Shown: positions 1 through 26,644 of the stretch, piece after piece
How positions within the stretch are numbered: the first letter of the stretch is position 1
Layout of the letters: each line of letters opens with the position of its first letter
Origin: Pedinophyceae sp. YPF-701
Taxonomy: Eukaryota > Chlorophyta > Pedinophyceae
DNA: 64,000 bases
Reading direction: 5' to 3'
Assembly: GCA_916048055.1 (NCBI GenBank)
Contig: CAJZHL010000008.1
Span: 434,001 to 498,000, forward strand
Translations under genes and position numbers: made by a program
Notes under the pieces: model-generated
Database searches by the model: none
Told to the model about the DNA's origin: nothing
The model's input: only the letters and a program-made list of their open reading frames with translations

Positions 1-944
1 CTCCACGACGAGCTGGACGGGAAATTACACGATCTCCAGGGACACGTCGAAGCTGCACAAGCCCAGTTCGCCGAGGACCTCTGGCTGGACGCGCAGCACA
101 GCCAAATGTGCATCAGCATCCTTGCAGAGCAGCAAGGGAAGCTGAAGGGACTGATCCGGTCCTTCCTGGCACTGAGGGTAAGCGCGGAAATGACCGCCGT
201 ATGCCCTTGCATCATCGCGCTTCTCAGACATAGTGCTCGGACGTAAACGTTGCAGCACTCGATGATGATTCGTTGCAGGCTAAAGCCGAAGTCGCACTCG
301 TGGTCATGAAGAAGGCATTCCACGCGCGTTCGCCTTGTGTCGTTGACGAAGATGCCTGCCGGCAAGCGCTTGTTGACGTGCTGGAGACCACAGGCCTCTG
401 GAAGGGCGCTGACTCCCCCACGCGGCTGGCCACGCGTGACGACGGAACCGGCTGGATCGGAAAGTGTGGCGGCGGCGGACCGTTTCTATTCCTGGCGCGT
501 GTTCCTGACGTCTCGGAGGGGTCGCAGCCTGCGGGATCGATTGCGGGCTTCGTGTACACCGGGCGCAGCTTCACGTCGGAACTCAAACTGGACGGCGACC
601 TCTTTGTCTTCAGTCTGAAGCGCGAGGGCGAGCTCACGAAGCAAGTGTGGCGTCTGAATGCGGGAACGAGTGACAGGGGCGTCAAGGCAGGCTCGCTCGG
701 ACCGGAAGTTTGTGTCCGTGTCTGTGTCGGTGCCTGCGACTACGACTCACGCTACTCGGGGCTGAGCTTTTTCGCCGATGGTACCAGTATCAGGCAATAT
801 TCGGATTGTGGGTGCGGCGACTCAGGCTGCAAAGAGAATTGGAGCCCGATAACCAAGGACACAGCCAAGCTCGAAGATACTGACTTGTTCGGCTGCGGCA
901 TCGGCTCCAGTGAGCTGTGCTTCTGGGAGATCTGGGAGCTGTGA
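1..944 (+). CDS. Copy A, 3' end of a BTB-MoxR-TLDc-like gene (5' outside window)
   Basis: Exons: 1..177 (homologue of exon 9, cut by the window edge) and 279..944 (exon 10, stop TGA at 942-944); intron 178-278, GTAAGC donor, TTGCAG acceptor. The first exon encodes the conserved coiled-coil segment with the motif [12 protein letters not shown]. The last exon encodes the cysteine-containing C-terminal domain ([21 protein letters not shown], ending FWEIWEL) that resembles TLDc. The AAA+ and BTB parts must lie left of position 1. Closest in the tail to copy C's exon 9 and to the broken fragment at 18206. No frame damage is seen in the visible part. Confidence 0.85.
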
Positions 945-1482
945 CCCCGTTTTTTGAGCGGCAGCTCGATGTCGCGGCACACGCAGTGCTACGTCTCTGC
1001 AATGGTGCATCTGACAGGTTGGTTGCCGCCGTTCACGAGACGGAGCTCTGGTTGCGTCGGGCGGTGCTGCGATCGCTGCTTGCATGGCTTGGACGACGCG
1101 GTGCTCGGTCCGCCCTCGTTGAGGCTCGGAGTTTTGCCAAGAGATAATGCGTGTTCAACTCACGTCATTTTGTTTCAACAGCACCCGGCGTTTTTCGGGG
1201 GATGCCCGCAGACGTACAGCGGATCCAGGTCCATCCCCGACGGCCCGTGCAAGGAGCCGCGCGGCCCCCTAGCGGTACAACAATGCTGGCCGACTCAGGG
1301 AGCAGCCTGAGGAGGTGAGTGCCAACACGCCCCTAGCGGACGAACGCCGACATTGCCGCCTGCTGCAGTCGGCGCACACTGCATTTCAGGGTGGTACGTG
1401 GCGAATGACGCGCGCCGTGCGCAGGGTGCGCCAGAATCTCCCGGGGTAGGCGAGGGATAGCACAGTGCGCACGTTGGGCACG
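945..1482. other. Spacer A-B, repeated in array
   Basis: No coding exon recognised. Blocks of this spacer recur before copies C (4985-5637) and F (18253-18800), for example the stretch with CGACGCGGTGCTCGGTCCGC near 1095 and the GCAGACGTACAGCGGATCC block near 1207. It presumably carries the copy A 3' UTR and the copy B promoter; no TATA box or other element stands out. Confidence 0.6.
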
Positions 1483-4400
1483 ATGTCGGCCCCGAGTGCG
1501 GGCGTGCCGGACATGGACCTGCTGGAGTCGCTGCGGCAGATGCTCACGCAGGCCGAGGAACAGCGGAAACGGAGCGCGGATGCGTTCGCACAAGGGCAAC
1601 TTGAGGAAGAGCAGAAACGAGCGGCGGAACGCAAGAAAGAAGACCAGAAGCGCGAGCAACGCGCAGAAGAGGTCAAGAAGGAGCTCGAACGGCACGGGGT
1701 GAGTGGCTGCGGGGCCTCATGCGCGGCGCTGTCCCGCCTCCTCCTCCGTGGTGCTGCATGGTCTCGCGCGCTCACGACATGGCCTCGCCCGCGCCCTTAC
1801 CCCCGCCTGTGGTGTTTATGGAATGCGGACCGAAAAACGTATCCCGCACCGTCGTTTCGCAGTTGACGCCGGAGCACTGCATTGCCCTGCATACGGGGGA
1901 GCGCAAGCACACGGTGACGATCGGCGTCGCCCTGGCCGACCCGGACTCGCACCTGGCGGACCTGGTGCTGGAGGCCGTGCGCAAGCGGGCGCCGTCGTCG
2001 CGCGCCTCTCGGTTGGCGCCCTGCGCTGAGCTGCACCTGCCCGACACGCACCCGGATGCATTTCAGTGGATCATCCTGAGGTGCGATTCTGCGGTGCCGC
2101 ACCGTCAGCGTCGACGCTTGTCCTCTGTTGCATCTGCCTGGCCAACTGCGGGCCACAAACAAACACCTTTTGAAGACTCATTGCAGTTATTTATTTGCGT
2201 TGTCGCTGGGCGAGAAGGCGCCGCTGCCTCCGAGCAGCATCGCGGAGCTCGTCAGGCTCCAGGCGAGGAAATGGGGCCTCCAGGTCAGTCATCACCGCGT
2301 TCGCTCGGAGCTGCAGCGTGGCGGTGGACTGCGTGGCATTGCAACGAGCCTTCCGCTGTGCGGTCGTGACACGCAGGAGCTGCTTGAGGTCCTTGATGCC
2401 ACTCACGCGGGCATCGTACGCCGTCCGTCCGCGTCCGAGAGCCCGTCCTGGACCAAGGACCAGCTGCGAGTGCTGGTTTCCCAACTCTCCACGGGGCTCG
2501 TGGACCGGGAGCACATGATGCGCAAGGCGCTGCTGGCGAGCATCGCCGGCGAGCACGTGCTGCTGCTGGGCCCGCCGGGCACGGCCAAGTCGCTCCTCGC
2601 GCGGCGGCTGCACATGGCCTTTTGCAAGGATGCAGGCGCTGAGCGAAAGGGCTACTTCGAGAAGCTGCTGACGAGGTTCTCGACGCCGGAGGAGCTGTTC
2701 GGGCCGATGTCGATCCAGAAGCTGCAGGTGCGAGCGTGCTGCGGGCTGTGTGGGAGCGCGACTTCCTCGCAGCGCACAGTGCCGACACTGACACGGCATG
2801 GGCACGAACGTTGCTGCAGGCGGACGTGTACGAGCGGCAGGTCGAGGGCTACCTGCCGACGGCGGAGATCGCGTTTATCGACGAGATATTCAAGGTGAGC
2901 CGCTGCCGGGCACGATCGACACACTACGCTGCGGTGCTCAATAGCTTCTCGCGCATGACCCGTCACGTTCCAAGCCGCGTCTGCTGACCACCGCAGGCCA
3001 ACAGCGCGGTCCTCAACTCCCTCCTCACCATCATCAACGAGCGCCTCTTCCACAACGGCAACACAACCATCAAGGTGCCGCTTATTTCAGTGATAGGGGC
3101 GTCGAACGAGGTGCCGGGGCAGTCGCAGGCGGAGCTGCAGGCGCTGTACGACCGGTTCCTGGTGCGGATGTGCGTGGGGTACCTGCGGGACAGCGACCAA
3201 GACGGAAGGTGAGTCTTCATCGATGCCTTGGACGGAGTGCGCTTGGACGGAGGCCTGCGGTGCGGACGAGATCATGATGCCGCGCGCGGACAATGTGTCT
3301 GGCACTCATCGTATGCTCGCAGGAGTCCTTTCGCGGAAATGGTCCTGGACTATTGCAACGAAGATGTTGCAGCGCAGGATGTTGCGCGAGCTGCCCTGTC
3401 GAAGGCTGACCTCCGCGATATCGCTGCGAGCGCCGACAAGGTCCACATCGGCGATGACGTCATGAGTCTGATTCGGAAGCTGCGGAACCGCTTCTCGGGG
3501 CAGGAGTGGCAGGTGAGATGCACGCACCTCTTGCAAGCACGTTGACCGTGGTGCGCAGACCGCAGGGCGGCCACACCAGAGAGGTACACCGCGGCATCGC
3601 GAGCTGCGGTGGTCGCTGACGAGTGTCACACCTCGCGCCGCAGGTGTCGGACCGCCGCTGGAAGAAAGCGGTCCGCCTTTTGCGGGTTGCAGCTGCTATT
3701 AACGGCAGGGCCGAGGTGCTTAAGTGGGACCTGCTGCACCTGACGTCGTGCGTGTGGCACCAGCCGGAGCAGGAGGAGGAGGCCCAGCGGTGCGTTGCGG
3801 ATCTGATCGCTGAGGGGACGGGCCTCGAGCGGTCGGTCCTCGAGTACCTGACTCAGCGCAAGGTCGCACTGAGTCGGGAACTGAAGGAGGCGAAGTCGGC
3901 GAAGGCGGTCGAGACCGTGCTGGCGCAGGTGTGCTGCGCGGCCAGTTGCATGACGTTGAGCACACGGGCGATGTCCTACATCTGCAGCAAACGCAACAGA
4001 AGGACTTCCGCGTTCCGCAGCTGCACGCGCTCCACGACGAGCTGGACGTGAAGCTCAAAGGCTTACAACAGGACGTCGAAGCCACGCAAGCCCTGCTCGC
4101 GGACGACCTGTGGCTCGACGCGCAGCAATGCCAGGTCTGCGTCAGCGTCCTTGCGGAGCAGCATGAGAAGCTCAAGGGACTGGACACGTCCTTCCTGGCA
4201 CTGATGGTGAGTGCTGGATAGTCTCAGTCAGTGAGCGAGCACTTGCATGGCCATGCAGAGAGGGGTCGGCGACTGTAGCCAGCTGCGTCTGAGCTCGACC
4301 CGCCATCTGGTGTGCTTGCAGGCCAGAGCCGAACAGGAGGCGGACGGACACCTGCAAGGATCGGCGGGGTCGAATCTGTTCCTGATGCCCTCGCCTTGTG

Positions 4401-4984
4401 TCGTGGACGACGCAAGAGTTCAGCAAGCGCTTGTTGATGTGCTGAGGACTACGGGCCACTGGAACGGCGCGTCTACCACTCCCCCTGCGCGCGTGGCTAC
4501 GTCTTCGGATGGCGGTGGCTTGATTGCGAAGTGTGCTAGTGGGGGGCCGTTCCTCTTCCTCGCGCGCACACAGAGTGGAGATGTGTCTGCAGCGTCTGTT
4601 GTGGGCTTCGTGTACTCCGGACAAAGCCTCGCAACGCAACTGCGACTGGACGGAGACCTGTATCTCTTCACTCTACAGCGCCGTGGCAAGCTCAGGAAGC
4701 ACGTATGGCGCATGAACAAGGGAAATGACGCAAGGGGAGCCACAGTCAGCTCGAATGGATGGGCAGTTGGTGCCCAGTGTGGTTACTCCGGCCACGTCGT
4801 CGCGGGCGTTCAGTGCACCGGGTCAACCATCACGCAGATGGCGGGGTGTCAGTGCGGTCGCCAATGCAATGCAGGAGGTTGGACCCGCCTGACCGACGGT
4901 GCTCCGAAGTTCAACAAGCTCGACTTGTTCGGGTCCGGCATTGGCAACGCCACCCCCTGCCTTTGGGAGGTGCGGAAGCTGTGA
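1483..4984 (+). CDS. Copy B: BTB-MoxR/RavA AAA+ ATPase-TLDc-like protein, 830 aa
   Basis: Exons 1483..1698, 1863..2080, 2187..2283, 2377..2727, 2820..2894, 2997..3208, 3323..3512, 3644..3928, 4021..4206, 4322..4984; they sum to 831 codons without an internal stop. Residues 1-72 form a K/E/Q-rich helix. Residues 73-177 look like a BTB/T1 domain ([19 protein letters not shown] ... HPDAFQWI). The AAA+ core has Walker A GPPGTAKS at 242-249, Walker B IAFIDE with D315-E316, sensor-1 N356 (GASNEVPG) and the YDRFLVRM arginine-finger box with R372, all typical of MoxR/Rav[14 protein letters not shown] near 455 matches the RavA sensor-2 helix. Residues 549-610 are coiled coil; 611-830 are TLDc-like. 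Start chosen at the ATG shared in position with copies C and F. Function is inferred: an ATP-driven remodelling chaperone with a BTB adaptor. Confidence 0.85.
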
Positions 4985-5637: not shown

Positions 5638-8600
5638 ATGTCGGCCCCGAGTGCGGGCGTGCCGGACATGGACCTGCTGGAGTCGCTGCGGCAGATGCTC
5701 ACGCAGGCCGAGGAACAGCGGAAACGGAGCGCGGAGGCATTCGCACAAGGGCAACTTGAGGAAGAGCAGAAACGAGCGGCGGAACGCAAGAAAGAAAACC
5801 AGAAGCGCGAGCAACGCGCAGAAGAGATCAAGAAGGAGCTCGAACGGCACGGGGTGAGTGGCTGCGGGGCCTCATGCGCGGCGCTCTCCCGCCTCCTCCT
5901 CCGTGGTGCTGCATGGTCTCGCGCGCTCACGACATGGCCTCGCGCGCGCCCTTACGCCCGCATGTGGTGCTGTACATGGAATACGGATTGAAAAACGTGC
6001 CCCTTAAGGTCGTTTCGCAGTTGACGCCGGAGCACTGCATTGCCCTGCATACGGGAGAGCGCAAGCACACGGTGACGATCGGCGTCGCCCTGGCCGACCC
6101 GGACTCGCGCCTGGCGGACCTGGTGCTGGAGGCCGTGCGCGAGCGGGCGCCGTCGTCGCGCGCCTCTCGGTTGGCGCCCTGCGCTGAGCTGCACCTGCCC
6201 GACGCGCACCCGGATGGAGCATTTGAGTGGATCCTGAGGTGCGACGCGGTGCCGCACCGTCAGCGTCGACGCTTGTCCTCTGTGGCATCTGCCTGTGGGT
6301 GCTCCTCACGCGCGCGTCCTTGGCCAACTGCGGGCCACACCTTTTGACACACTGCAGTTATTTATTTGCGTTGTCGCTGGGCGAGAAGGCGCCGCTGCCT
6401 CCGAGCAGCATCGCGGAGCTCGTCAGGCTCCAGGCGAGGAAATGGGGCCTCCAGGTGAGTCGTCGCCGCGTTCGCTCGGAGCTGCAGCGTGGCGCTTGAC
6501 AGCGTGGCATTGCACCGAGCCTTCCGCTGTGCGGTCGTGAGACGCAGGAGCTGCTTGAGGTCCTTGATGCCACTCACGCGGGCATCGTGCGCCGTCCGTC
6601 CGCGTCCGAGAGCCCGTCCTGGACCAAGGACCAGCTGCGAGTGCTGGTTTCCCAACTCTCCACGGGCCTCGTGGACCGCGAGCACATGATGCGCAAGGCG
6701 CTGCTGGCGAGCATCGCCGGCGAGCACGTGCTGCTGCTGGGCCCGCCAGGCACGGCCAAGTCGCTCCTGGCGCGGCGGCTGCACATGGCCTTTTGCAAGG
6801 ATGCAGGCGCTGAGCGAAAGGGCTACTTCGAGAAGCTGCTGACGAAGTTCTCGACGCCGGAGGAGCTGTTCGGGCCGATGTCGATCCAGAAGCTGCAGGT
6901 GCGAGCGTGCTGCGGGCTGTGTGGGAGCGCGACTTCCTGCATGACCCGCACTGCCGACACTGACACGGCATGGGCACGAACGTTGCTGCAGGCGGACGTG
7001 TACGAGCGGCAGGTCGAGGGCTACCTGCCGACGGCGGAGATCGCGTTTATCGACGAGATATTCAAGGTGAGCCGCTGCCGGGCACGATCGACACACTACG
7101 CTGCGGTGCTCAATAGCTTCTCGCGCATGACCCGTCACGTTCCAAGCCGCGTCTGCTGACCACCGCAGGCCAACAGCGCGGTCCTCAACTCCCTCCTCAC
7201 CATCATCAACGAGCGCCTCTTCCACAACGGCAACACAACCATCAAGGTGCCGCTTATTTCAGTGATAGGGGCGTCGAACGAGGTGCCGGGGCAGTCGCAG
7301 GCGGAGCTGCAGGCGCTGTACGACCGGTTCCTGGTGCGGATGTGCGTGGGGTACCTCCAGAACCGCAACGAACACGGAGGGTACGCCCACCACATTGCAT
7401 CACTTGATTGCAACGCCCTGACTCACCCGTGAGGCGTTCCATGCACCAGGGGCCTGCTTCCCCTTGTTTCACCAAGTGCGAGGGATGCTCCCCGGATGTG
7501 TGCAGGAAGCCTTTCGCGGAGATGGTGTTGAGCGACGTGACCGATGTTGCGAACGACGTCGTACAGACGGCTCTGTCCGCGGCGGACCTGCGCGACATCC
7601 GGGATCGCGCAGGGAGGGTCAGGGTCGACGAAAACGTCATGGCGATGATCGAGAAGCTGCGGGACCGCTTCTCGGGGCAGGAGTGGCAGGTGAGAGACCC
7701 CAAGTTGTCACGAATGGATTGAGAGGTCTCGGGACGACGGCATGCAGGCCGAGGACCTGGCGCCCGCACGATCGCTGACGGTGCATATTTGTGCGCGGGC
7801 TTGCAGGTGTCGGACCGGCGCTGGAAGAAAGCAGTGCGTCTCCTGCGCGTTGCAGCGGCGACCGACGGCAGGGACGAGGTGCGGAGGTGGGACCTGCTGC
7901 ACCTGGCGTCATGCGTGTGGCACCAGCCGGCGCAGGAGGAGGAGGTTCGGTCGCACATCGCGGGTCTGCTGGCCGAGGACGCGGGCTTCGAATGCTCCGT
8001 GCTGACAACTTTCCTGACTCAGCGCAAGGAAGTGCTGCACCAGGAGCTCTCCGAGGCAAAGTCGGTCCAGGATGTAGAGAAGATCCTGCAGCAGGTGCGT
8101 CTTGCGTGCGGGGGCATAAATTTGCCCGGGAGATGTTTGCTGCGGCCAGTGCATATTCCACAACGTGGCGCTCGCGCATCTTCCTCCGCAGCTTAACACC
8201 TTCCTCGACGAGCTGGACGTGAGGTTCCAGGACCAGCAAAAGGACGCCGAAGCTGCACAAGCCCAGTTCGCCGAGGACCTCTGGCTGGACGCGCAGCACT
8301 GTCAGATGTGCATCAGCATCCTTTCGGAGCAGCAAACCAAGCTGAAGGGACTGATCAGGTCTTTCTTGTCGCTCAGGGTGAGTGCCAGATCCAATCGGCC
8401 CAGCAAGCGTGCACGTCGTGAGAGGCTCACGTACGCGTTGCGCGAACGTTTTTTCGCGCGATTTGCCATCGCAGGTCAAAGCCGAGGAGACACTCAAAAC
8501 CAAGCAGGGCGCCGAATTCACGGCTCCTGCACCCAATGCCGCGATCAGCGCGGCCGATCAGCTCGCGCTGTTGGACGTGCTGAAAATCACGGGCGTTCGA

Positions 8601-9395
8601 AAGGGCGCCGCTCCCACACGCTTGGCGACGCGCAACGATGGCGGTGACTGGACCGCCAAGTGCGCAGGCGGCGGCCCGTTCCTCTTCCTCATACGCGTCC
8701 CCGTCTCCTCCAGCGGCCCGGAAGCGATCTCTGGCTTCATATACGGCAGTGCATCAAACATCACGACAGAAACGAAGTTTGACGGAGACATATTCGTTTT
8801 CAGGATGAAGCATGCGGGCAAGTACTTGAAGCAGGTGTGGCGCATGGAAAAGGGCGCGCACAGGGGCGTGAAGTCAAGTTCGGATGGACCAGAAGTGGGT
8901 TTCTACTGCCCGGCCACTTGGGAGCATTTCTCGGGCATCCGCTGCCTGACTCAGACGCAGACTGCTCCCTCTCCTCAAGGCGGTGGTTTTGGCGCTGCTT
9001 CTCCAACCCCTCCTAGTTTCGGCGGTTTCGGTCAGCCAGCCAGCACGCCAGGTCCTGCACCCACCAGCACCTTCTCATCTGCTGGTTATGGTGGCAGTAG
9101 TGGGTTCGGTACGTTTGGTGCTCCTGCGAAGCTCCCGAGCACCCCACCAGCTTTCAGTGGTGGTGCTTTCGGTCAGCCGTCCAGTTTCGGTCAGGCGCCC
9201 CAGCCCACGCAACCCAGCAAGCAAGTCTGTGTCCAGCAGCGCGGCCCCTGTGGCTGCGGCGGGACGAAAGCGCCCTGCAACGGGCCAAGATGGTACCCGC
9301 TCACCGATGATGCGCGCGTGCTCGACGAGGCAGATTTGTTCGGTGCAGGCATCAACAGCACCGTTGAATGTTTCTGGGAGGTCTGGAAACTGTGA
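5638..9395 (+). CDS. Copy C: BTB-MoxR/RavA-TLDc-like protein with FG-rich insertion, 915 aa
   Basis: Exons 5638..5853, 6021..6238, 6358..6454, 6548..6898, 6992..7066, 7169..7380, 7506..7689, 7807..8094, 8192..8377, 8475..9395; 916 codons including stop. The first 390 residues are nearly identical to copy B (Walker A 242-249, Walker B D315-E316, sensor-1 N356, R372). Exon 6 ends GG rather than AG before a GTACGC donor, so the split codon gives Gly instead of Arg. Exon 10 is 921 nt against 620-705 in the sister copies because about 265 nt (8961-9225, residues about 772-860) encode GGFG, FGQPAS, SGFGTFGAP and SSFGQ repeats like those of FG nucleoporins, inserted inside the TLDc-like domain. The domain then resumes and ends FWEVWKL. 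Confidence 0.85.
8961..9225 (+). repeat. FG-repeat insertion in exon 10 of copy C
   Basis: Low-complexity Ser/Pro/Gly/Gln segment with about eight Phe-Gly dipeptides (GFG, FGQ, FGTFG), absent from copies A, B and D-G at the same place. It is in frame and flanked by conserved domain sequence on both sides, so it is a coding insertion, not an intron: it has no convincing GT/AG pair that would restore the sister-copy length. Confidence 0.7.
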
Positions 9396-9843: not shown

Positions 9844-12800
9844 ATGTTGACGTCGCTGCATCGCGCGGCAGCGGCGCGTCACGCCAACCGGCCTCCCTCG
9901 CGCGATTATCTGCCAGCCGAGATGGAGAAGGAGCTTCAGCAGCACGGGGTGAGCGACCTACCCACCTACCTCGCTACAGTGCTCAGAATCACTGCAGAGA
10001 TTCTCTGCCTGACAAGCATTGCGAAGTTCCGCTCGCGTGACCCGGCTGCAGCACCCCGCATTCAGCTAGTACAGCGAACACCACGATCACGACGCCGTCG
10101 GCGCCAACGAGCCTGCCCCGCGCCCGTGCCTGCAGTTGACGCAAGAGCACAGCGTCGCCCTGTGCGTGCGAGATCGGGACTTCCTCGTCACGCTCAGCGT
10201 CGCCCTCGCGGAGCCTCAGTCTCTGCTCGCCCAGTCCGTGCGCTCGGCTTTGCGTGACGCGCCGCGGAGCACGACACCCATCCCGCAGCCCGCACTTCGC
10301 GTACACCTGACGAACGCGGACCCGGACGTATTCGAGTGGGTCGTCAGGTGCGCGCGCGCATCCACCGCGAATGTGCGCGCCTCCAAGCGACAGCGCTCGC
10401 GTCTGACTGCGAGCGAAACCCCCCCTCCCACTCTGGGCCAACAGGTACCTCAACGCACTGGTGCTCGGAATGGACGCGCCCCTGCCCTCGGGCCAGACTG
10501 CACAGCTGCTGCTGCTCCAAGCCAGACGCTGGGGCCTCGCGGTAGGTCGCCCTGCCCGTCGTGCACCTGCTGTAGCGACGTGTTTGTTCCTGCCACGTGC
10601 ACAGGCTCACACCGGGCCCATTCGACGCGCAGGGCCTCGTCGAGGCTCTCAGCCCCACAGGCACATGTGCGCCGCCCGCCCAGCTTCGCCTGGACGCCCC
10701 CAGCGGCCCGTCCTGGACCAAGGAGAAGCTGCAACAGCTGGTTGCCAGACTGTCAGTGGGTCTCGTGGACCGCGAGCACATGATGCGCAAGGCGCTGCTG
10801 GCCGGCATCGCCGGCGAGCACGTGCTGCTGCTGGGCCCGCCAGGCACGGCCAAGTCGCTCCTCGCGCGGCGGCTGCACGTTGCGTTCAGCGCCGACGGCA
10901 ACAGAGGCGCGTACTTCGAGAAGCTGCTGACGAAGTTCTCGACGCCGGAGGAGCTGTTCGGGCCGATGTCGATCCAGAAGCTGCAGGTGCGCCCTCGTTG
11001 ATGGCGCCGACAAAAAAAACGAGAACCATCCTACCGCGCGGAAACAGCCCCTGAAGGACGGCTGCTCGCTCAGCGTGCTCATTGCGTGCTCCCCTACGGC
11101 GCGCGGCGCATGTTTCGAAGCGCACGGCGGAGATGCGAGACCCGCGTCCCGTCCAGTTGCAGCGCCACGCCACCCGGCCAGCGCCCGAGCCTTGCGGGCT
11201 GAGGAGCCGGTTCACGGTGCGCCCCAGGGTCGCACCGTGGCGCTGTCGCCCACCCAGGGACCTCTCAAGGGTGAGATGTCTCGGGAACGTGGCAGACTCG
11301 CCACGGTGCGCCTCACGGGCCCCTGTGGGCCGGCTCTTTGGCACCTGCAAGCCTGAGGGATGGTTGCCGGAACCTTGCGTGGGTGGTCGCGCGTTAGGCC
11401 CATTTCTGAAAACCCCTGAGCCTTGTCCCGAGGCGCTGGTGGCGGGGCCAATGATGGGAGTCAGAGCGCGCCTCGCAGCGAGGGGCCTCGGGGCGTCCCC
11501 CGCGAGCGTGCCTGTGCTGTCGTCGCGTCAGGATGACTCTGGCAGTTGACGGTACGCTGCAGGCGGACGTGTACGAGCGCAAGATCGATGGCTATCTGCC
11601 GACCGCTGAGATTGCGTTCGTGGACGAGATATTCAAGGTGCTGCGCCAGAAACGACAAAACGCATCTGCATGCAACGCACGCGTGCAAGCATTGCCACTT
11701 CCAGATCTCGCGCTTCGCCGCACGTCCGCAGGCCAACAGCGCGGTCCTCAACTCCCTCCTCACCATCATCAACGAGCGCCTCTTCCACAACGGCACCAAC
11801 GTCATCACCGTTCCGCTGATTTCCATGATCGGGGCGTCGAACGAGGTGCCGGGGCAGTCACAGGCGGAGCTGCAGGCGCTGTACGACCGGTTCCTGGTGC
11901 GGATGTGCGTGGGGTACCTGCGGGACAGCGACCAAGACGGAAGGTTCGTTTCGATGTTTGATTTTTGGTTTCTGAACCACGGAATAATGCTTTGCCAGGC
12001 CAAGGGCTCATGCGACGCGTCTTGAGCGAGCTTGAATTGGTGCGGCGCATCGCGTGCGCTGATGTGCAGGAGCCCGCTGCTGCAGATGGTGCTGGACAGC
12101 GACAGCGATGTGACCGCAGCGGATGTCGCTGAGGTGGCGCTGTCGGTGGCGGACGTTCGCGACATCTGCCAGCGCGCTGACAAAGTGCACGTCGGGAAAC
12201 GCGTCGCGGAGCTGATTCTGAAGCTGCGGCAGCAATTCTCGGGGCCGGAGTGGCAGGTGTGTGGGTGTTCTGGCGGCAAACTGCGCCCGCGGATCGCCGG
12301 TGCATGATTCATGAATAACCGCTGACGGGACTCGGGCGACCGGCGCGATCTGCAGGTGTCGGACCGCCGCTGGAAGAAAGCGGTCCGCCTCATGCGTGTT
12401 GCAGCGGCGACTGATGGCAGAAACGAGGTGCGCAGGTGGGACCTGCTGCACGTGGCGTCGTGCGTGTGGCACCAGCCGGAGCAGGAGGAGGCTGCGGAGA
12501 CCCACATTCTGCGCCTGCTGGTCGACGAGGCGGGGATGGAGCGCCAGGTTCTGGCCCACCTGACTCAGCGCAAGGGCGTGCTGGAGCGGGAACTGTCGCA
12601 GGTCAAGTCAGGCGGCGACGTCGAGAAAGTGCTCGAGCAGGTGCGCGCTCGCGGGCGATTGAACGTCGGACGGAGACCGTGCAGACCCAAGAAGGAGGTT
12701 TTCAGAATGGACACAAACCTGAGCCGCTCGATGGAGCCGCTGTGCGCCGCAGATGAAGACGCTCAAGAGCGAGCTGGACAAGCAGATGGAGTCACTTTCC

Positions 12801-14131: not shown

Positions 14132-17100
14132 ATGGCGGACGCCAAGGCCGTAGATGATTTCGATCTCAAGGGCACGTTGCAGAAGATGCTCGAACAGGTC
14201 GAGATGCAGGAGAAACGCTGCGCTGCAATGTTTGCGCAACAGCAGCGCGAGGAGGAGCGCCAGCGCACGGAGAAGCGCCAACGGCGCGATGAGGAGCGCG
14301 AACAGCTGGTCGCCGAGGTGGAGCAGGAGCTGAAGCGCCACGGCGTGAGCGTCCCGGCCTCGTTGCGGGCGCCATCTCTTGTGTGCAACGAACATGGTGA
14401 TGGGCTGCGCACCTGGCGCACTCGCTGAACGATCGTTCACGATCAAGTGTGGTCTTGCCTCTACCCTGCCTCGGTTCTTGTTCACTGCGTGCGCCTTGGT
14501 CCGTGCCAGTCTTCACCCAAGCAACTGCCTGCAGTTGTCATCTGAGGACTGCGTCTCCCTCCGCGTCTGCGAGCGGCAGTTCACCGTGTCGCTCGGCGTC
14601 GCTCTCCGGGACCCCAGCTCGCTCCTCGCGGACAAGATCCGCACGGCGCTGCGCAGCCGCGCCGACCGCCCGGCACAGGCACCGCACCACGTGTGCGCGG
14701 AGCTGCACTTGCCCGACTCCGACCCCGAGGCCTTCCAATGGGTCCTGCGGTGCGTCGCTGACACGCAACAGGCGCGCCCTGTCATCGCCTGCATCCGCAT
14801 CCTTCATTCCCTAATTGAAAATGCTCTGCCACCACCTGCAGATTCCTGCGCGCGTCATCGCTGGGCGAGGAACTGCCCCTGCCTTCTGGGCAGAACGCGA
14901 AGCTCCTGATGCTCGAAGCGAAGAAGTGGCGGCTCAGCGTGAGTGTCCGTTTCACCCCGTCAGCCCCGCGTTTGGTTTCACCTCGCGCAATACCGTGCTC
15001 AGGCTCACACGGCCCGCTGCGCACGCGCAGACGCTGCTGGAGGCCCTCGCGGCTGCGTCCCCGGGCCCAACAGCCGTCGTACCTAGGAGCACCTCTGCGT
15101 CCGAGAGCCCGTCCTGGACCAAGGACCAGCTGCGAGTGCTGGTTTCCCAACTCTCCACGGGCCTCGTGGACCGCGAGCACATGATGCGCAAGGCGCTGCT
15201 GGCGAGCATCGCCGGCGAGCACGTGCTGCTGCTGGGCCCGCCGGGCACCGCGAAGTCGCTCCTCGCGCGGCGGCTGCACATGGCCTTCCGCGCCGAGGCC
15301 GGGGCGGGGGGGTACTTTGAGAAGCTGCTGACGAAGTTCTCGACGCCGGAGGAGCTGTTCGGGCCGATTTCGATCCAGAAGCTGCAGGTGCGCTCGCGTC
15401 AATTGCGCCTGACGCTGATCAATTCCACCCAGAGTCCTCAGCTAGATGAAAAAGAAAGTGGAGCGGCTCCGAGCCCTGCCGCGTTGCGACGCTCTATTGA
15501 TGCAAGCGAAGGCTACGTGCGCTCACTCTCACGCACTTGTTCTACTTCGCGCGGCCAGCTGTTGCGGGACCGCGGCGCTCGGTCGTCCGCTATGGACTTC
15601 CCGCCCTCGGGACAGCCCGCAGGGGCCTGCGGGCCCGCTGTGGTGGCTGCCTCGCGCGAGAAGATGCCTCTCCAGAAGAGGTTTCCTCACAACACGGCGG
15701 AGCCACCGCAGCGGTCCCACAGGCCCCTGCGGACCAGCCCGCTCACATGTCCTTGGGCTGGTGAGGCCAGCAATGCGCACTAGGCGCACAGGATGTACAG
15801 CCTGCAGCTGCTGCGAGTTGGCCTATTCGAGTTGGCCATGCTGCTCTTTTGCGGGCTCAATATCGGCTCTCAGACTGCGCTGCACAACACCTCTCTCCTT
15901 GTGCCATGCTCACTGCGTCAGGGGCACACAATCCCGACGCTGCAGGCGGACGTGTACGAGCGCCATATCCAGGGCTACCTGCCGACGGCGGAGATCGCGT
16001 TCGTGGACGAGATATTCAAGGTGAGTCTGCTGTCGTTCATCACTGGTGTGGCAACGGGCTGGATTCAGTTGCAGCCGTGCTCCTGAGCGAGGCCACCTTC
16101 ATCGCTCCCCGTCCCCCATGACACCTGCAGGCCAACAGCGCGGTCCTCAACTCCCTCCTCACCATCATCAACGAGCGCCTCTTCCACAACGGCACCAACG
16201 TCATCACCGTTCCGCTTATTTCCATGATCGGGGCGTCGAACGAGGTGCCGGGGCAGTCGCAGGCGGAGCTGCAGGCGCTGTACGATCGGTTCCTGGTGCG
16301 GATGTGCGTGGGGTACCTCAAGAGCCACGATGACAGAGGAAGGTGAGCTCAAATTTTGCGTGAATTACGGCAAGGTTGTCTGACGCCCGAATTAATTTCT
16401 TGCACGGGTCTCCCCACCATATCACTCCACGCACTTCCAGCCATGATGCTGAGCGGTGGTCTCGCTGCGCGCAGGAAGCCTTTCGCGGAGATGGTGATGA
16501 GGAGCTCGAGCGATGTTTTGCAGGACACTGCGCAGGCGGCTCTGTCTGCGGCGGACCTGCGCGATATCCGGGACCGTGCAGAGAAGGTCATCGTCTCTGT
16601 CCATGTCATGGCGCTGATCGAGAAGCTGCGGGATCGCTTTTCGGGGCAGGAGTGGCAGGTGAGACGCGATGACGACGCGGCTGTGGGTTCGGTGTCTGCA
16701 GCCATCGTCCGCTGAGCGCGAGTCGCCTTCGTTGCTTCACAGGTGTCGGACCGCCGCTGGAAGAAAGCCGTGCACCTTTTGCGCGTAGCTGCGGCGACCG
16801 ACGGCAGGGCCGAGGTGCGGAGGTGGGACCTGCTGCACCTGACGTCGTGCGTGTGGCACCAGCCGGAGCAGGAGGAGGAGGCCAGGCAGTATATTGCGAG
16901 CGTGCTGGCTGAGGAGACGGGCTTCGAGCGGTCAGTCTTAACACACCTGACTCAGCGTAAAGATGTGCTGGTTCGGGAGCTGGCGGAGGCGAGCACGGCC
17001 GACGGCGTCGAGAGAGTGCTAGAGCAGGTATGCTCCGCGGCCAGTCGCGTGGCTTTTACCGCGAACCACACATGTCTGCCGCGTCTGGCAGGGGGTGATG

Positions 17101-18145
17101 TTTGACCCCTGCAGCAAACGCAACGGAGCATCATCTGTGCCCCGCAGTTGAATGCGCTCCACGACGAGCTGGACGTCAAGCTGCAATGTCGGCACAAGTA
17201 TATCGAAGCCACGCAGGTGTTCATCACACAGGACCTGTGGCTGGACGCGCAGCACTGTCAGATATGCATCAGCATCCTCGCAGAGCAGCACGCGAAGCTG
17301 AAGGGCCTGAGCAGGTCGTTCCTGGCGTTGCGGGTGAGTGTCGAGTGCTTTCGGCCCTTTGCAACGTCTTGCGCGACCATTGCAAGTGTGGAGTCGAGGA
17401 CTTGCGTGTTGTCTTGACGTACGATCTTGCGCAATCGCAGGGCGACGCCGAGCGAGCGCTCAAGGACTGGCAAAACATATTCATGACGCTCTCGCCGAGG
17501 ATTATGACCAGCTCTTCTCGTCAGGAAGCGCTCGTCGATGTGCTGAAGACCATGGGCCACTGGAAGGGCGCTGGTCGCCTCGTACGCCTGGCAACAAGCG
17601 AAGACGGCAGTGGCTGGATTGCCAAGTGTGCCAGCGGGGGGCCGTTCCTCGTCCTGGCGCGCGCACCTCGGGTGGGAGGCAGTGCATCCATTGCGGGCTT
17701 CGTTTACTCCGGAAACAGCCTCACGCAGGATTTGCGAATGGACGGGGACCTGTGTGTGTTCAGTCTGGAGCGCAAGGGCAAGCTCACGAAGCAAGTGTGG
17801 CGCAAGGGAGGCCAGCCAGTCAGAGCACGGCGCAGGGGTTGGTACGCCAACACGGATGGACCGGCAGCTCGTGTCGAGTGTCAGTGTGGCTCTTCGTACT
17901 CCATTGTGCGGTGCGTTGGCTCTGGGGCTGCAGGGCCATGCATCGAGCAGATCGGGGCGCGTCAATACTTTTATGAGTCCGACGGGGAAGACGAGTACGA
18001 TAACGATTATTGTCACGATGATGATCACTGTTCGGGAACTTGGGTCCCGCTGACCGGTGGTGCTGCGGCGCTTGAAAAGACCGACTTGTTCGGGGCCGGC
18101 ATTGGCAAAGCTACCCCTTGCCTTTGGGAGGTGTTGAAGCTGTGA
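14132..18145 (+). CDS. Copy E: BTB-MoxR/RavA-TLDc-like protein, 842 aa
   Basis: Exons 14132..14344, 14535..14749, 14842..14938, 15031..15387, 15946..16020, 16131..16342, 16475..16658, 16743..17027, 17148..17333, 17441..18145; 843 codons including stop. Residues 1-71 form a coiled coil rich in E/Q/R; BTB part [21 protein letters not shown] at residues about 77-97; Walker A 244-251; Walker B D315-E316; sensor 1 and arginine finger as in copy D. Intron 4 (15388-15945) is long and holds an inverted repeat. Exon 10 contains an acidic and histidine-containing loop ([19 protein letters not shown], 17975-18031) inside the TLDc-like domain, not present in the sister copies. Exons 8-10 and introns 8-9 are very close to copy F. 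Confidence 0.85.
15617..15732. repeat. Imperfect inverted repeat in intron 4 of copy E
   Basis: Arms 15617-15648 and 15701-15732 are complementary over 32 nt with three mismatches (arm begins CCGCAGGGGCCTG), separated by a 52-nt loop that can itself pair weakly. It would fold into a strong hairpin in the pre-mRNA. Copies D and G have related GC-rich sequence in their long intron 4; B, C and F have a short 92-104 nt intron 4 without it. Confidence 0.7.
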
Positions 18146-18800: not shown

Positions 18801-21800
18801 ATGTCGGGCCCGAGTGCGGGCGTGCCGGACATGGACCTGCTAGAGTCGCTGCGGCAGGTGATCTCGCAGGCCGAGGAACAGCGGAAACGGAGCGCGGAGG
18901 CATTCGCACAAGCGCAACTTGAGGAAGAGCAGAAACGAGCGGCGAAACGCAAGAAGCAAGACCAGAAGCGCGAGCAACGCGCAGAAGAGATCAAGAAGGA
19001 GCTCGAACGGCACGGGGTGAGTGGCTGCGGGGCCTCATGCGCGGCGCTCTCCCGCCTCCTCCCCCTTTGTGGTGCATGGTCTCGCGCGCTCACGACATGG
19101 CCTCGCGCGCGCCCTTACGCCCGCATGTGGTGCTCTGCATGAAATGCGGACCAGAACACGTGCCTCTTAAGGTCGTTTCGCAGTTGACGCCGGAGCACTG
19201 CATTGCCCTGCATACGGGAGAGCGCAAGCACACGGTGACGATCGGCGTCGCCCTGGCCGACCCGGACTCGCACCTGGCGGACCTGGTGCTGGAGGCCGTG
19301 CGCGACCGGGCGCCGTCGCGTGGCTCTCGTTTGACGCCCTGCGCTGAGCTGCACCTGCCCGACACGCACCCGGATGCATTTCAGTGGATCATCCTGAGGT
19401 GCGATTCTGCGATGCTGCACCGTCAGCGTCGACGCTTGTCCTCTGTTGCATCTGCACGTGGGTGCTCCTCACGCGTGCGTCCTTGGCCAACTGCGGGTCA
19501 CAAACAAACACCTTTTGAAGACACATTGCAGTTATTTATTTGCGTTGTCGCTGGGCGAGAAGGCGCCGCTGCCTCCGAGCAGCATCGCGGAGCTCGTCAG
19601 GCTCCAGGCGAGGAAATGGGGACTGCAGGTAAGTCATCACCGCGTTCGCTCGGAGCTGCAGCGTGGCGCTTGACTGCGTGGCATTGCGCCGAGCCTTCCT
19701 GTGCGGTCGTGAGACGCAGGAGCTGCTTGAGGTCCTTGATGCCACTCACGCGGGCATCGTACGCCGTCCGTCCGCGTCCGAGAGCCCGTCCTGGACCAAG
19801 GACCAGCTGCGAGTGCTTGTTTCCCAACTCTCCACGGGGCTCGTGGACCGGGAGCACATGATGCGCCGCGCGCTGCTGGCGAGCATCGCCGGCGAGCACG
19901 TGCTGCTGCTGGGCCCGCCGGGCACGGCGAAGTCGCTCCTCGCGCGGCGGCTGCACATGGCCTTTCGCGCCGAGGCCGGGGCGGGGGGCTACTTCGAGAA
20001 GCTGCTGACGAAGTTCTCGACGCCGGAGGAGCTGTTCGGGCCGATGTCGATCCAGAAGCTGCAGGTGCGAGCGTGCTGCGGGCTGTGTGGGAGCGCGACT
20101 TCCTCGTGGCGCACAGTGCCGAGACTGATCAGTGTCATGACACGGCATGGGCACGAACGTTGCTGCAGGCGGACGTGTACGAGCGGCAGATCCAGGGCTA
20201 CCTGCCGACGGCGGAGATCGCGTTCGTGGACGAGATATTCAAGGTGAGTCTGCTGTCGTTCATCACGCCATGACGCTGTTCGTGGTTGACTTCAGTTGCA
20301 GCCGTGCTCCTGAGCGAAGCCCGCCTCATCGCTCTCCGGCCCCCATGACATCTGCAGGCCAACAGCGCGGTCCTCAACTCCCTCCTCACCATCATCAACG
20401 AGCGCCTCTTCCACAACGGCACCAACGTCATCACCGTTCCACTGATTTCCATGATCGGGGCGTCGAACGAGGTGCCGGCGCAGACACAGCCGGAGCTGCA
20501 GGCGCTGTACGACCGGTTCCTGGTGCGGATGTGCGTGGGGTACCTCCAGAACCGCGATGACACAGGAAGGTGAGCTTTCTAAGCTCACATTTTAGTACAT
20601 GTTGATTGTTTCACGGGCCTGGGCGCCCGGACGAAGTTCGCACATGGATTTGCCGGCATGTCGTGATGCGCGCCATCAGTCAAGATGCTCAACCTGCACG
20701 ATTCCTGCGCGCAGGAAGCCTTTCGCGGAAATGTTGAAGAGCAGCTCAGGGGAGGCACCACAAGACATCGCGCGGGCAGCTCTGTCCGCGGCGGACCTGC
20801 GCGACGTCAGGGACCGCGCAGAGACGGTCGAGATCGGTGACGATGTCATGGCGCTGATCGAGAAGCTGCGGGACCGCTTCTCGGGGCAAGAGTGGCAGGT
20901 GAGATGACATGAGGTTGTCATTATCGTGACGTTGCGTCGAGCAGGCCGTGGATTGGATGCCTGCAGCCACCTTGTCCGCTGAGCGCAAGTCGCCTTCGTT
21001 GCTTCGCAGGTGTCGGACCGCCGCTGGAAGAAAGCCGTGCACCTTTTGCGCGTAGCTGCGGCGACAGATGGCAGGGCCGAGGTGCGCAAGTGGGACCTGC
21101 TGCACCTGACGTCGTGCGTGTGGCACCAGCCGGAGCAGGAGGAGGAGGCCAGGCGGTACATTGCGGGCCTGCTCGCTGAGGGGACGGGCCTGGAGCGGTC
21201 AGTCATCACGTACCTGACTCAGCGCAAAGACGTGCTGGTCCGGGAGGTCTCCGCTGCGGAGTCGGCGAAGGCGGTCGAGACAGTGCTGGCGCAGGTGTGC
21301 TGCACAGCTAGCTGCATGGCCTTTGCTGCGAACCACACATGTCTGCTGCGTCGGGTGATGTTTGACAGCTACAGCAAACGTTAACGCAACGGAAGCACCA
21401 TCGTGTGCCCCGCAGTTGAATGCGCTCCACGACGAGCTGGACGTCAAGCTGCAAGGTCTGCAGAAGGAAATCGAAGCCACGCAGGCCCTGATCGCACAGG
21501 ACCTGTGGCTGGACTCGCAGCACAGCAAGATATGCGTCGGCGTCCTCGCAGAGCAGCACGCGAAGCTGAGGGACATGAGCAGGTCGTTCCTGGCGCTACG
21601 GGTGAGTGTCGAGTGCTTTCGGCCCTTTGCAACGTCTTGCGCGACCACTGGAAGGGTGGAGCTGAGGTTGACTTGCGTGTTGTCTTGACGTACGATCTTG
21701 CGCAATCGCAGGGCGACGCCGAGCGAGCGATCAAGGACTGGCAAGCCATGTTCACGGCGTTCTCGCCTAGTACTGTGGTCGACGCTTCTTGTCAGGAAGC

Positions 21801-22353
21801 GCTCGTCGATGTGCTGAAGACCACGGGCCACTGGAAGGGCGCTGCTCGCCTCGCACGCCTGGCAACGAGCGATTACGGCAGTGGCTGGATTGCGAAGTGT
21901 GCCAGCGGGGGGCCGTTCCTCTTCCTGGCGCGCGCACCTCGGGTGGGAGGCAGTGCATCCATTGCGGGCTTCGTTTACTCCGGAAACAGCCTCACGCAGC
22001 AACTGCGACTGGACGGGGACCTGTGTGTGTTCAGTCTGAAGTGCCAGGCCAAGCTCACGAAGCAAGTGTGGCGCATGGCGCAGGTAGTTCAAAGCAGCAC
22101 AGCACGGGGCAGGGGGGTGAAAGCCGACACGGATGGACCGGCAGCTGGCGTCGAGTGTCGGTATGGCAGCATGGTCTCGGGCATTCAGTGCACGGGCTCC
22201 CCGCCCGCCGTCAAGCAGATGGGGGTGTGTCGAGGACAAGGTTGCAACTGCTGTTCAGGAGCTTGGATCCCACTGACCGGCGCTGCGGCGCTTGAAGCGA
22301 CCGACTTGTTCAGCAATGCTACTTCCTTTGTTTGGGAGGTGTGGAAGCTGTGA
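18801..22353 (+). CDS. Copy F: BTB-MoxR/RavA-TLDc-like protein, 818 aa (mosaic)
   Basis: Exons 18801..19016, 19184..19398, 19532..19628, 19720..20064, 20169..20243, 20358..20569, 20715..20898, 21010..21294, 21416..21601, 21712..22353; 819 codons including stop. Spacer, exons 1-3 and intron 4 are of the B/C type; exon 5 onward ([10 protein letters not shown]), intron 5 and exons 8-10 are of the E type. AAA+ motifs complete: Walker A 241-248, Walker B D312-E313. Exon 4 is six bases shorter than in B and C after Walker A ([13 protein letters not shown], as in copy E), so the E-type tract may start there. A TGTAA sits 17 nt after the stop, a possible poly(A) signal of green-algal type. Confidence 0.85.
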
Positions 22354-22691: not shown

Positions 22692-25600
22692 ATGGAGCAA
22701 GCGGATGGGGCCCCGGCTCAGCGGACGGACGCAGAAGACGCGCACGAGCACGGCGCGACGGGCTGTCGTGCTCAGACGTCGATCCAACCGCGGACTCCGC
22801 GTAAACAGGGCGTGGATGAGCTGGCCTCAAACGGTTGCGATGCCGTGGACGACCAAGGCCCGGCGAAGCGCGCAAAGCCAGCCTGCGAGCGGGACAGACT
22901 GGCGGAGTCGATGGCGGCGCGGCTGCACAAGCACAACGTGCGCCACCTGACCTGCAATCAGCGGCTGATGATGCACCACCAAAAAACGTTGTGGCACCTC
23001 CCGGGCCGTCAGCCCGTCTGCCGTGCCGCAGAGTTCCCACGATGATCAAGCACATTTATGCACGCACGGTGCTCGCCGGAACCAAGCACTTCGCGCACCT
23101 CACCGCCCGCAGTTGACGCCGCAGCACTTGGTCGCGCTCCACCTCGGGCAGGCCAGCCAGCTCACCGTCACGCTCGGCACCGCGCTGGCCGACCCCGAGT
23201 CGCTCCTCGCCGAGTTCGTGTGCTCGGCCGCCTGCGAGCGCGGCGGCGCAGCCCAGCAGCCCTCGCTGTGGACACCGTGCGCGGCACTGGACCTGCCCGC
23301 CGACCCCGACGTATTCCGTTGGATCGTCCGGTGCGCAACACGAAGACAAATGGTCCTGCCGGTGCACATGCGACGCGTCATGCACGCCACGAATACCCCC
23401 CCCACCAGCGAGGTTCGTGCGCCGCTCCTCTGTAGGTATCTCGAGGCTTCCTCGCTCGGCGAGAGACCGCCCCTGCCCACAGGCGACACCGCGGAGCTCC
23501 TCCTGCTCCAGGCCAAGAGATGGCGGCTCAACGTACGTCGTCAAGCGCGGTCGGCTGACCACCGTTGAAATCGCACGTCGAGCTGCTCGCACGTACGCTG
23601 CGCGCGGCTCACACGCCGCCGCGACCCGCTCTACCGCAGGCGCTTGTCGAGGCACTCAACGGCAAGCTATCGCCCACGTCAGTCGCGCCGCGGCGGCTCT
23701 GCGCGCCAGGGGCCCCTTCTTGGAGCAAGTATAAAATCGACGTATTGGTGTCCAAGCTGGCTGCGGGCCTCGTGGACCGCGAGCACATGATCCGCCGCGC
23801 GCTGCTGGCGAGCATCGCCGGCGAGCACGTGCTGCTGCTGGGCCCGCCGGGCACCGCGAAGTCGCTCCTGGCGCGGCGGCTGCACCTGGCCTACCACACG
23901 GGCGGGGAGGGGGCGGGGGGCGACGGAGCGTACTTCGAGAGGCTGCTGACGAGGTTCTCGACGCCGGAGGAGCTGTTCGGGCCGATGTCGATCCAGAAGC
24001 TGCAGGTGCGAGGCTGCTGCCTGCAACTACCACTACTAGCGCGTCGCGAAGACGGCCCCGGGCGCGTTGCAGATTGGGCCGGTCTGCACGCAGCCTGCCT
24101 AGCTCTGAAGCCCGCGGAACGGTCAAAACGTCGGCGTGCGTCCCGCAAGAGCGCCAAATGCTCGCAGCTCTTGGTGCTGAAGGGCTTCTAGACCACGCAG
24201 GCCTGCGCGCCCACCGCCAAGCCCGCTGCACCCTCGACCCCTGCGAGTTCAAAGGCTGTGTTGCGCGCCGCGATTCTACCGCGGTGGGCCTCGCGGGCCC
24301 TCAGGCGGGCTCTCGAGCTCGAAAGGCTCTAGATGCCAGCTGCGGAGCACGGGCCGGCCAGAGGCGCGGGACGTGCTCGGGCCTAGCCGCAGTTTCCGTG
24401 CAGACGATGCTTCGCCGCGCCATGTAGCCGGGCAGGCAGTTGGGGGTCTGCTGCGAGACACCTCCTCCTGAGCCTTGCATGTCGCGTCAGGATTCGGTTT
24501 CACACTGCAGGCGACGCACCCGAACGTTGCAGGCGGATCAGTACGAGCGCAAGATCGAGGGCTACCTCCCGACCGCCCAGATCGCGTTCGTGGACGAGAT
24601 ATTCAAGGCGAGGATTGATGACGATGTTCGTGGGCTGGATTCTGTTGCAGCCCACGTGCTCCTGAGCGAAGCCCGCCTCATGCCCCCCCGCCGCCCCGTC
24701 CCCAATGACACCTGCAGGCCAACAGCGCGGTCCTCAACTCCCTCCTCACCATCATCAACGAGCGCCTCTTCCACAACGGCACCAACGTCATCACCGTTCC
24801 GCTGATTTCCATGATCGGGGCGTCGAACGAGGTGCCAGGGCAGACGCAGGCGGAGCTGCAGGCGCTGTACGACCGGTTCCTGGTGCGGATGTGCGTCGGA
24901 TACCTCAGGAGCCGCGACACACACGGCAGGTACTACCTTGCACAACCACATGACGTGACGCATGACGATGAATTTCGTACTTCGTCACTCAACACGCAAT
25001 CGAACACACTCTGCAACCGCCCTGTCTTCGGTCGAAAGCGAGCTGCATCCCACCCGGTGCGTCGTGGGAGGATTGCACTGGTTTGCAGGGGGGTGTTTAT
25101 GGACATGGTCCTGGGCGATGCGGGGGAAGTGACGGCGGCCAGCGTGGCCCAGGAGGCGCTGTCGGGATCCGACCTCCGCGACATCGAGGACCGCGCGAGG
25201 AACGTGGTCGTTCCCGAAGATGTCCAGGATCTGATTCTGCAATTGCGCAGCCGCTTCTGTGGCACCGAGTGGCAGGTGGGTCGGAACACGCGTCGGGCGC
25301 GCTCGCAGCAGGCCGTTCGGAGCATCGAAGAGATTCGTGGTCTCTCGGCGTGCTGCACGTGCAGGTGTCGGACCGCCGCTGGAAGAACGCGGTGTACCTC
25401 ATGCGCGTGGCTGCGGCGACGGACGGTAGAGCCGAGGTACGCAAGTGGGACCTGCTGCACCTGACGTCGTGCGTGTGGCACCAGCCGGAGCAGGAGGAGG
25501 AGGTCGAGCAGTTCGTCGTGGGCCTGCTGACGGAGGACATTGGGGTGGGACGTGAGTTTATGAGCCACTGGGATCTGCGGCGTAACACTGCGGACAGAGA

Positions 25601-26644
25601 GCTGTCTGACGCGGACTCCGTTCAGGACGTGCAGCGCGTGTTGAGCCAGGTACGGCGCCCGCTTTTGTCTTGCCTGTCTTTGAGGCTGTAGACACTCATC
25701 ATTGCCGCGGAGGGCCGTGCGGGCGTGCAGGTGGCGGACCTGACCCTGGAGCTAGAGCGCAGGGCTGCAGCTCTATTGCAGGAGATCAGCGACATGAAGT
25801 CGTTGTTGGCCGAGGACCTGTGGCTCGATGTGCAACACCGCCAAGTGTGTTTTGGCGCTCTGGACCAGAAGCATATCGAATTGCTTCGCCTGAAGGACTC
25901 GTTCTTGAACGTCAAGGTAAGCGATCTCCCTCGCGCATGCACCATCCCAACCGAACCTCTGCCGCGAAGCCCTTGAAAACCACACATGCGATTTTCGTTG
26001 TTGTCCGCTTCTTGTGAGTGCAGAGCAGGGCCAACGCCATCAAGAAAGGCATCAAGGATGCGTTCATGAACGGGCGGCACTCCGTGCTGAACAGCGACCC
26101 CTGCAGAGGAACCCCTTGCAGGAACGCGACCATCCACATGCTGCGCGCACTCAAGCTTTGGCGGGGCGCGTCGCCCCCGAAGCTGCTGACGACGAGCAGG
26201 AAAGGCGGCCTGACCGGCCACTGCGCCAGCGGCGGGCCCTTCGTCTTTTTGATACGGTCAGAGACACCCCAGGGGCACTCAATTGCCGCCCTGGTCTACA
26301 CGGGCCCCCGCATCCTACCGACCTGGATCTGCGAGGGCGACTTGCTGCTCCTGAGCGTCATGGTCAAGGGGGACCTGACGTGCAGGGCCTGGCGGCACCG
26401 CAAAGGCAGCGGCAGCTTCATCGCAGCTCAGAGCGTCGCAGGTCCCACGGTGACGACGAGCAGCGCTCCGCTGATCACGTTCTGCACACCGGGGTCGAGC
26501 GTCCGGCAGGGCATCGAGGCCGCGCACGCGCCTTGCAAGTGGGAGCCCGCCATCGGTCCGAAGAGGCCTCTGAACGAGTTCGATTTGTTCGGCGTGGGTG
26601 TAGGCAACTACGCATCGTGCGTCTGGGAGCTGTGGACGCTGTGA
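22692..26644 (+). CDS. Copy G: most diverged complete BTB-MoxR/RavA-TLDc-like protein, 830 aa
   Basis: Exons 22692..22937, 23113..23330, 23436..23532, 23640..24005, 24533..24607, 24718..24929, 25089..25275, 25365..25649, 25731..25916, 26024..26644; 831 codons including stop. Exon 1 (82 residues) has no coiled-coil similarity to the others; it is hydrophilic with a basic AKRAKP stretch. BTB part [20 protein letters not shown]; Walker A 255-262; Walker B D330-E331. Intron 2 ends TAG rather than CAG, and intron 5 starts with GC (AAG/GCGAGG). Exon 6 is nearly identical in DNA to copies D-F although exons 1-3 and 7-10 are far apart, which points to gene conversion. Last gene of the array; downstream DNA is single-copy. 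Confidence 0.83.

Follow-up and report, generated by a model that had tools for sequence, protein, structure and literature searches.

Eight neighbouring same-strand genes of Pedinophyceae sp. YPF-701 (NIES-2566), a marine green alga now named Akinorimonas japonica (taxonomy; PMC12574857, in excerpt), encode a RavA-type MoxR AAA+ motor preceded by a coiled coil and a putative BTB domain, called by profile, and followed by a TLDc domain, called by predicted fold. Two ViaA genes lie in the same cluster. We consider it fairly probable that the array products constitute a cytosolic RavA-ViaA-type machine with one motor and differing tips, and that the V-ATPase is its likeliest target.

The window, i.e. 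the whole analysed stretch of 64,000 nucleotides (C8:434001-498000), is part of an assembly of 27.9 Mb in 32 contigs. A genome search for the RavA lid revealed at least nine places, of which eight belong to C8 and one belongs to C32. The array starts upstream of the window; positions without prefix refer to the window.

ViaA2, L010:7704-9896, upstream of gm1
gm1, L009:662-4458, RavA-type copy, ten exons, open
ViaA1, L009:6879-4648, strand opposite to the RavA copies, four exons, 624 aa, between gm1 and g0
g0, 1..944, + strand, exons 9-10 only (1-177, 279-944); exons 1-8 upstream at L009:7482-9895
g1, 1483..4984, + strand, 830 aa, ten exons
g1 exons 2-3, 1863-2080 and 2187-2283 (1863..2283), + strand, putative T1/KCTD-like BTB, residues 73-177
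g1 exons 4-8, 2377..3928, + strand, RavA-type MoxR AAA+ and lid
g1 exon 10, 4322..4984, + strand, candidate TLDc, residues 611-830, assigned by alignment, the fold being predicted for the g5 homologue
g2, 5638..9395, + strand, 915 aa; exon 10 (8475-9395) with Gly/FG-rich insert
g3, 9844..13699, + strand, 782 aa, short exon 1
g4, 14132..18145, + strand, 842 aa, sole copy with a Pfam BTB_2 match
g5, 18801..22353, + strand, 818 aa, mosaic with g1/g2-like front and mostly g4-like rear
g5 exon 10, 21712..22353, + strand, candidate TLDc domain used for fold prediction
g6, 22692..26644, + strand, 830 aa, intron 5 with GC donor

Each of the eight copies consists of ten exons in identical order and yields an open frame of 782-915 aa in the spliced models. 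The first-pass annotation had recognised six intact ten-exon neighbours, and g1-g6 are indeed open when spliced, while the array in fact comprises eight genes. Introns of g1-g6 are of the GT-AG type in 53 of 54 cases and GC-AG in one. The g0 model is 824 aa long with a single, terminal stop. The deposited protein P0001, itself a prediction, is identical to our g5 model over 818 aa; hence a full-length model joins the BTB, AAA+ and TLDc exons in one gene, as had been assumed. A second deposited protein, P0002 (631 aa), combines exon 1 of g0, exons 2-4 of g2 and exons 5-9 of g4. Because exons of three different array genes are joined, this public model is doubtful; an annotation error is likely, with long-range splicing as the other possibility. 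Intron 4 falls into two size classes, 92-104 bp (g0, g1, g2, g5) and 527-576 bp (gm1, g3, g4, g6).

The motor was readily identified. Pfam bpMoxR and AAA_lid_8 matched in all three copies scanned (g1, g3, g6), and the top-ranking PDB entries for g1 are structures of E. coli RavA (3nbx, E 9e-62), which bears out the MoxR/RavA ATPase proposed earlier. The Walker A and B, sensor 1, arginine-finger and sensor-2 motifs are present in 8/8 copies. Against the NCBIfam RavA profile NF010054, g1 aligns to positions 9-335 of 498 with 270.8 bits, below the equivalog cut-off of 681 bits; the C32 RavA likewise falls short (244.9 bits). A LARA target-binding domain was not found: the profile match of g1 stops before it, and the C-terminal exon has a predicted TLDc fold. 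The array thus resembles E. coli RavA-ViaA in its AAA+ core and lid and in having a ViaA-family vWA gene in the cluster, but differs by the missing LARA match, the putative C-terminal TLDc and the added N-terminal coiled coil and candidate BTB. Moreover, it consists of eight nuclear paralogues with nine introns each, and the partner is arranged head-to-head, in contrast to the operon of E. coli.

Of the clues to function, the ViaA partner carries the most weight; it suggests a remodelling machine of the MoxR-vWA kind. ViaA1 matches NF008230 ('ATPase RavA stimulator ViaA') with an E-value of 2e-54, whereby its 185.4 bits remain below the equivalog cut-off of 500 bits. It exceeds the Pfam cut-off for VWA_2 and retains an intact MIDAS (D-x-S-x-S, T and D present); a sequence search of the PDB gave no match at E ≤ 0.1. 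The vWA half of ViaA2 is identical to that of ViaA1 (residues 321-624) and the preceding part is 46-66% alike. The ViaA2 frame is broken in a G-run near the 3' end, due to mutation or sequencing error. Both ViaA genes stand head-to-head with a RavA copy, with predicted start codons 602 bp (ViaA1-g0) and 765 bp (ViaA2-gm1) apart. A third ViaA-like gene is located on C11 and a separate RavA (530 aa) on C32; these two may form a pair of their own.

At the N-terminus, exon 1 encodes a charged coiled coil, as judged by eye. Exons 2-3 matched Pfam BTB_2 in one of the eight copies (g4, E 0.0031, 18.3 bits versus a cut-off of 21.4) and in none of the remaining seven, so that the curated cut-off was reached in 0/8. 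Full-length Pfam scans of g1, g3 and g6 yielded no BTB or TLD match at E ≤ 1, and a genome-wide Pfam BTB search gave four matches, none within the array. A genome-wide BTB_2 search gave no match anywhere, whereby the controls were also silent, so that this search carries no information. In a profile search of the PDB with the BTB region, KCTD9 ranked second (E 0.16) behind an unrelated match at 0.12, and it was chosen for hhalign because of this listing. The eight-copy alignment and the KCTD9 BTB are in register over 95 columns, i.e. the whole domain, with E 5.4e-5 and a probability of 67%; the score of 31.0 lies above all of 200 shuffles (maximum 18.7) and all of 200 random segments (maximum 17.8). 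For KCTD5 the score was 22.2 (probability 12%). Among the alignments made, A6 has the motor aligned but covers the BTB region with RavA N-termini that are unrelated to it, and A4 and A7, which included exon fragments, were misaligned and discarded. The BTB that the first-pass annotation had placed at residues 73-177 is consequently retained as a putative T1/KCTD-type domain on the KCTD9 profile comparison, while Pfam lends it a sub-threshold match in a single copy. Cullin genes are present in the YPF-701 genome.

The predicted structure of g5 exon 10 is a TLDc fold, and exon 10 is regarded as a candidate TLDc domain on the basis of this prediction only. None of the eight exon-10 domains matched Pfam TLD at E ≤ 10, and a genome-wide Pfam TLD search gave four matches, none in the array. 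Comparison of the array exon 10 with the alga's own TLDc by hhalign gave no link (Prob 0.2), an exon 10 profile search of the PDB returned chance WD-repeat matches only (E 0.6), and a search with the C-terminal region among 6,400 candidates retrieved itself only. The TLDc-like domain suggested earlier for residues 611-830 is thus favoured by fold prediction for the g5 homologue, but neither by Pfam nor by hhalign. Compared to OXR1/OXR2, NCOA7, mEAK7, Skywalker/TBC1D24 and Rtc5, the predicted array TLDc shows 9-15% identity and no Pfam TLD match, and unlike in these proteins it is fused to an AAA+ motor. In g2 alone, an FG-repeat-like insert of ~80-90 residues rich in Gly/Phe-Gly is found inside this domain (exon 10, 8475-9395).

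We searched for relatives with g5 (best 120 of 828 matches) and with the Dolichomastix protein P0107 (best 120 of 2,857). Apart from P0001 and P0002, every g5 match listed covers 53% of the query or less. In related green algae, motors of this type are joined to other domains. Besides the ordinary-length RavA P0124, Cymbomonas tetramitiformis contributes four longer proteins to the matches listed: P0122 carries SPRY (26.4 bits, cut-off 26.3), P0123 a weak SPRY, P0126 a weak ZZ match and an N-terminal extension, and P0130 no extra domain named by Pfam. Dolichomastix P0088 carries APC10/DOC (30.6 bits, cut-off 21). In a Pfam scan of ten relatives, 0/10 had a BTB or TLD match. The first 239 residues of Dolichomastix P0107 are shared with P0088 and the last 507 with P0121, which indicates either a transcript-assembly chimera or real recombination.

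For tree building, rows were required to contain two anchor motifs, which 112 of 118 homologues did. The first tree, using 36 rows, did not place the array. The second tree, of 37 rows, unites the array with seven longer RavAs (P0122, P0123, P0126, P0130, P0088, P0107, P0121) in one branch (15 rows, support 97/89), places RavAs of ordinary length from algae in a second (8 rows, 100/99), and gathers 14 rows with the label bacterial in a third (92/83). The latter are those of 15 chosen rows that passed; five bear bacterial names, and nine are metagenome proteins assumed to be prokaryotic. Rows P0096 and P0197 of the ordinary-length set, which we label canonical, and also P0076 are not attributed to an organism. 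The array sits on a long branch, and grouping it with the canonical (p-AU 0.11) or the bacterial rows (p-AU 0.274) was not rejected. Canonical algal RavAs (C32, Apatococcus P0111, Ulva P0129, Pyramimonas P0177, Cymbomonas P0124 and others) share the RavA-type AAA+ with the array, but leave no room for BTB and TLDc at either end (C32, 530 aa) and sit on the other branch. The seven longer chlorophyte RavAs share with the array the branch and a motor with appended parts; their appended domains are different, and in 3/7 none is named by Pfam.

Over the 28 pairs of array copies, exons 4-6 are the most alike, with a median nucleotide identity of 85-92%; the value falls to 68-77% for exons 1-3, 7 and 8 and to 65% for exons 9 and 10. 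Individual copies are mosaics. Exons 1-6 of g1 and g2 are 96-100% alike, exons 7-10 only 68-75%; silent differences amount to 8/295 sites in the former and 166/314 in the latter (Fisher p 4e-49). Up to intron 4, g5 is nearest to g1/g2, whereas g4 is nearest in every one of exons 5-10 (81-97%); intron 5 of g5 is nearest to g6 and its intron 6 has no close relative. This pattern of identity implies that the copies have swapped motor and end parts with one another. Median dN/dS reaches 0.89 in exon 1 and 0.57 in exon 10 and lies at 0.39-0.45 in exons 2-9; with values of 0.39-0.57 throughout exons 2-10, the copies are under constraint. The ratio of nonsynonymous to silent changes (N:S) in exon 10 was compared to exons 4-9 in 6 of the 28 possible pairs, the p-values being uncorrected and the pairs sharing genes. 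It is elevated in two pairs (g4/g5, p 0.0008; g1/g5, p 0.004), and the excess is not significant in the other four (p 0.06-0.17). For g4/g5, exon 10 dN/dS is 1.25, not shown to exceed 1. Positive selection on the candidate TLDc domain was weighed and is not claimed, an N:S excess in two of six pairs being no proof.

In the machine we propose, AAA+ rings would hydrolyse ATP, and the vWA domain of ViaA with its intact MIDAS would dock on the ring and hold the client. NorQD, an ATP-driven remodeller of a MoxR ring and a vWA protein, offers a precedent for which client binding by the MIDAS has been proposed (PMC9976466, in excerpt). The predicted TLDc tip may grip the target complex in place of LARA, since the putative TLDc lies at the C-terminal end, beyond a RavA match that stops short of LARA; in E. 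coli RavA the LARA domains contact the target LdcI (PMC6987120, in excerpt). At the opposite end, the candidate T1/KCTD-like BTB could serve self-association or adaptor contact, and Cullin-3 recruitment through it is possible. Gene conversion would keep the motor alike among the copies while the tips differ. As the copies share the motor and differ in their tips, they may represent one engine with several specificities. V-ATPase would be the first target to consider because, among TLDc ligands, it is known best and the yeast TLDc protein Oxr1p disassembles it (PMC11094088, in excerpt). V-ATPase binding may, however, be lost, as the predicted array TLDc is so diverged that Pfam and hhalign miss it.

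The array could instead be a diversifying recognition or conflict system, with a constant MoxR-vWA motor and fast-changing tips shuffled by recombination, as the equivalent in eukaryotes of the ternary MoxR-vWA conflict systems of bacteria. We regard this as possible but rather unlikely. It would account for eight tandem copies with constant core and variable tips, for the exon 10 excess in two of six pairs including the g4/g5 ratio, and for related algal RavAs with SPRY or APC10/DOC tips. Constant MoxR and vWA cores with variable attached effectors are described in the available parts of Kaur et al. 2020 (PMC7159879), and Pfam bpMoxR is named after one such system. Yet the array belongs to a single-celled eukaryote and its tips are fused to the MoxR protein; a third core component (VMAP, iSTAND, FtsH or beta-propeller) is not among the components recognised here. 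The rate evidence is limited as stated above. Moreover, silent sites of exon 10 have diverged as well, and much of the contrast between core and tips can therefore be put down to a homogenised core.

Plain tandem duplication under relaxed constraint, leaving one useful BTB-RavA-TLDc gene among drifting, unspecialised duplicates, appears less likely still. Tandem same-strand copies with mosaic gene conversion agree with it, and dN/dS is highest in exons 1 and 10, as relaxed constraint predicts. However, all eight copies have kept open frames and intact motor motifs, and the medians in exons 2-10 speak for constraint. Finally, the BTB, AAA+ and TLDc exons could belong to separate genes that were joined by the choice of splice sites. 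The proteins of this alga that were examined are predictions and P0002 is chimeric, but one exon order recurs in eight copies, the g5 model equals the deposited protein, and a Dolichomastix transcriptome protein joins RavA to a C-terminal domain in a single frame; such an artefact is therefore very improbable.

The three-domain fusion proposed in the first-pass annotation withstands both refuting conditions named there, through the BTB profile match, the predicted TLDc structure and the deposited predicted model that joins the exons. The coupling to Cullin-3 or V-ATPase suggested there is kept as a candidate role, and the ViaA partner and the tips of other algae had been overlooked. RavA-ViaA has been described in bacteria, its targets being respiratory complexes and a lysine decarboxylase according to excerpts of the literature. 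Eukaryotes have other MoxR-clade machines: midasin and Mg-chelatase share with the array the pairing of a MoxR-clade AAA+ with a vWA domain, but belong to other sub-clades according to the available parts of PMC7159879. Our data suggest a borrowed bacterial machine that was given new targets. Eukaryotic docking domains on a nuclear RavA-ViaA cluster would, if true, illustrate how such a machine can acquire new targets. Two questions become testable in a culturable alga: whether TLDc brings an ATP-driven remodeller to the V-ATPase, and whether the RavA paralogues of algae are a diversifying recognition family. More speculatively, green algae might have made RavA-ViaA modular, with a constant motor and exchangeable tips (TLDc and BTB here, SPRY or DOC elsewhere) recombined in tandem arrays, as a conflict-system counterpart or an ATP-driven substrate receptor of a ubiquitin ligase.

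Judged by titles and abstract openings, searches of an open-licence literature collection showed no description of the fusion. An apparent match for MoxR and TLDc was dismissed, as 'mOXR1' there denotes mouse OXR1. Directly 3' of the array, an open frame of 600 aa (26910-28712, - strand) has no Pfam match at E ≤ 0.001. Further neighbours assigned by Pfam are ELP3 (37026-39239, - strand) and a DEAD-box helicase (43121-45076, + strand).
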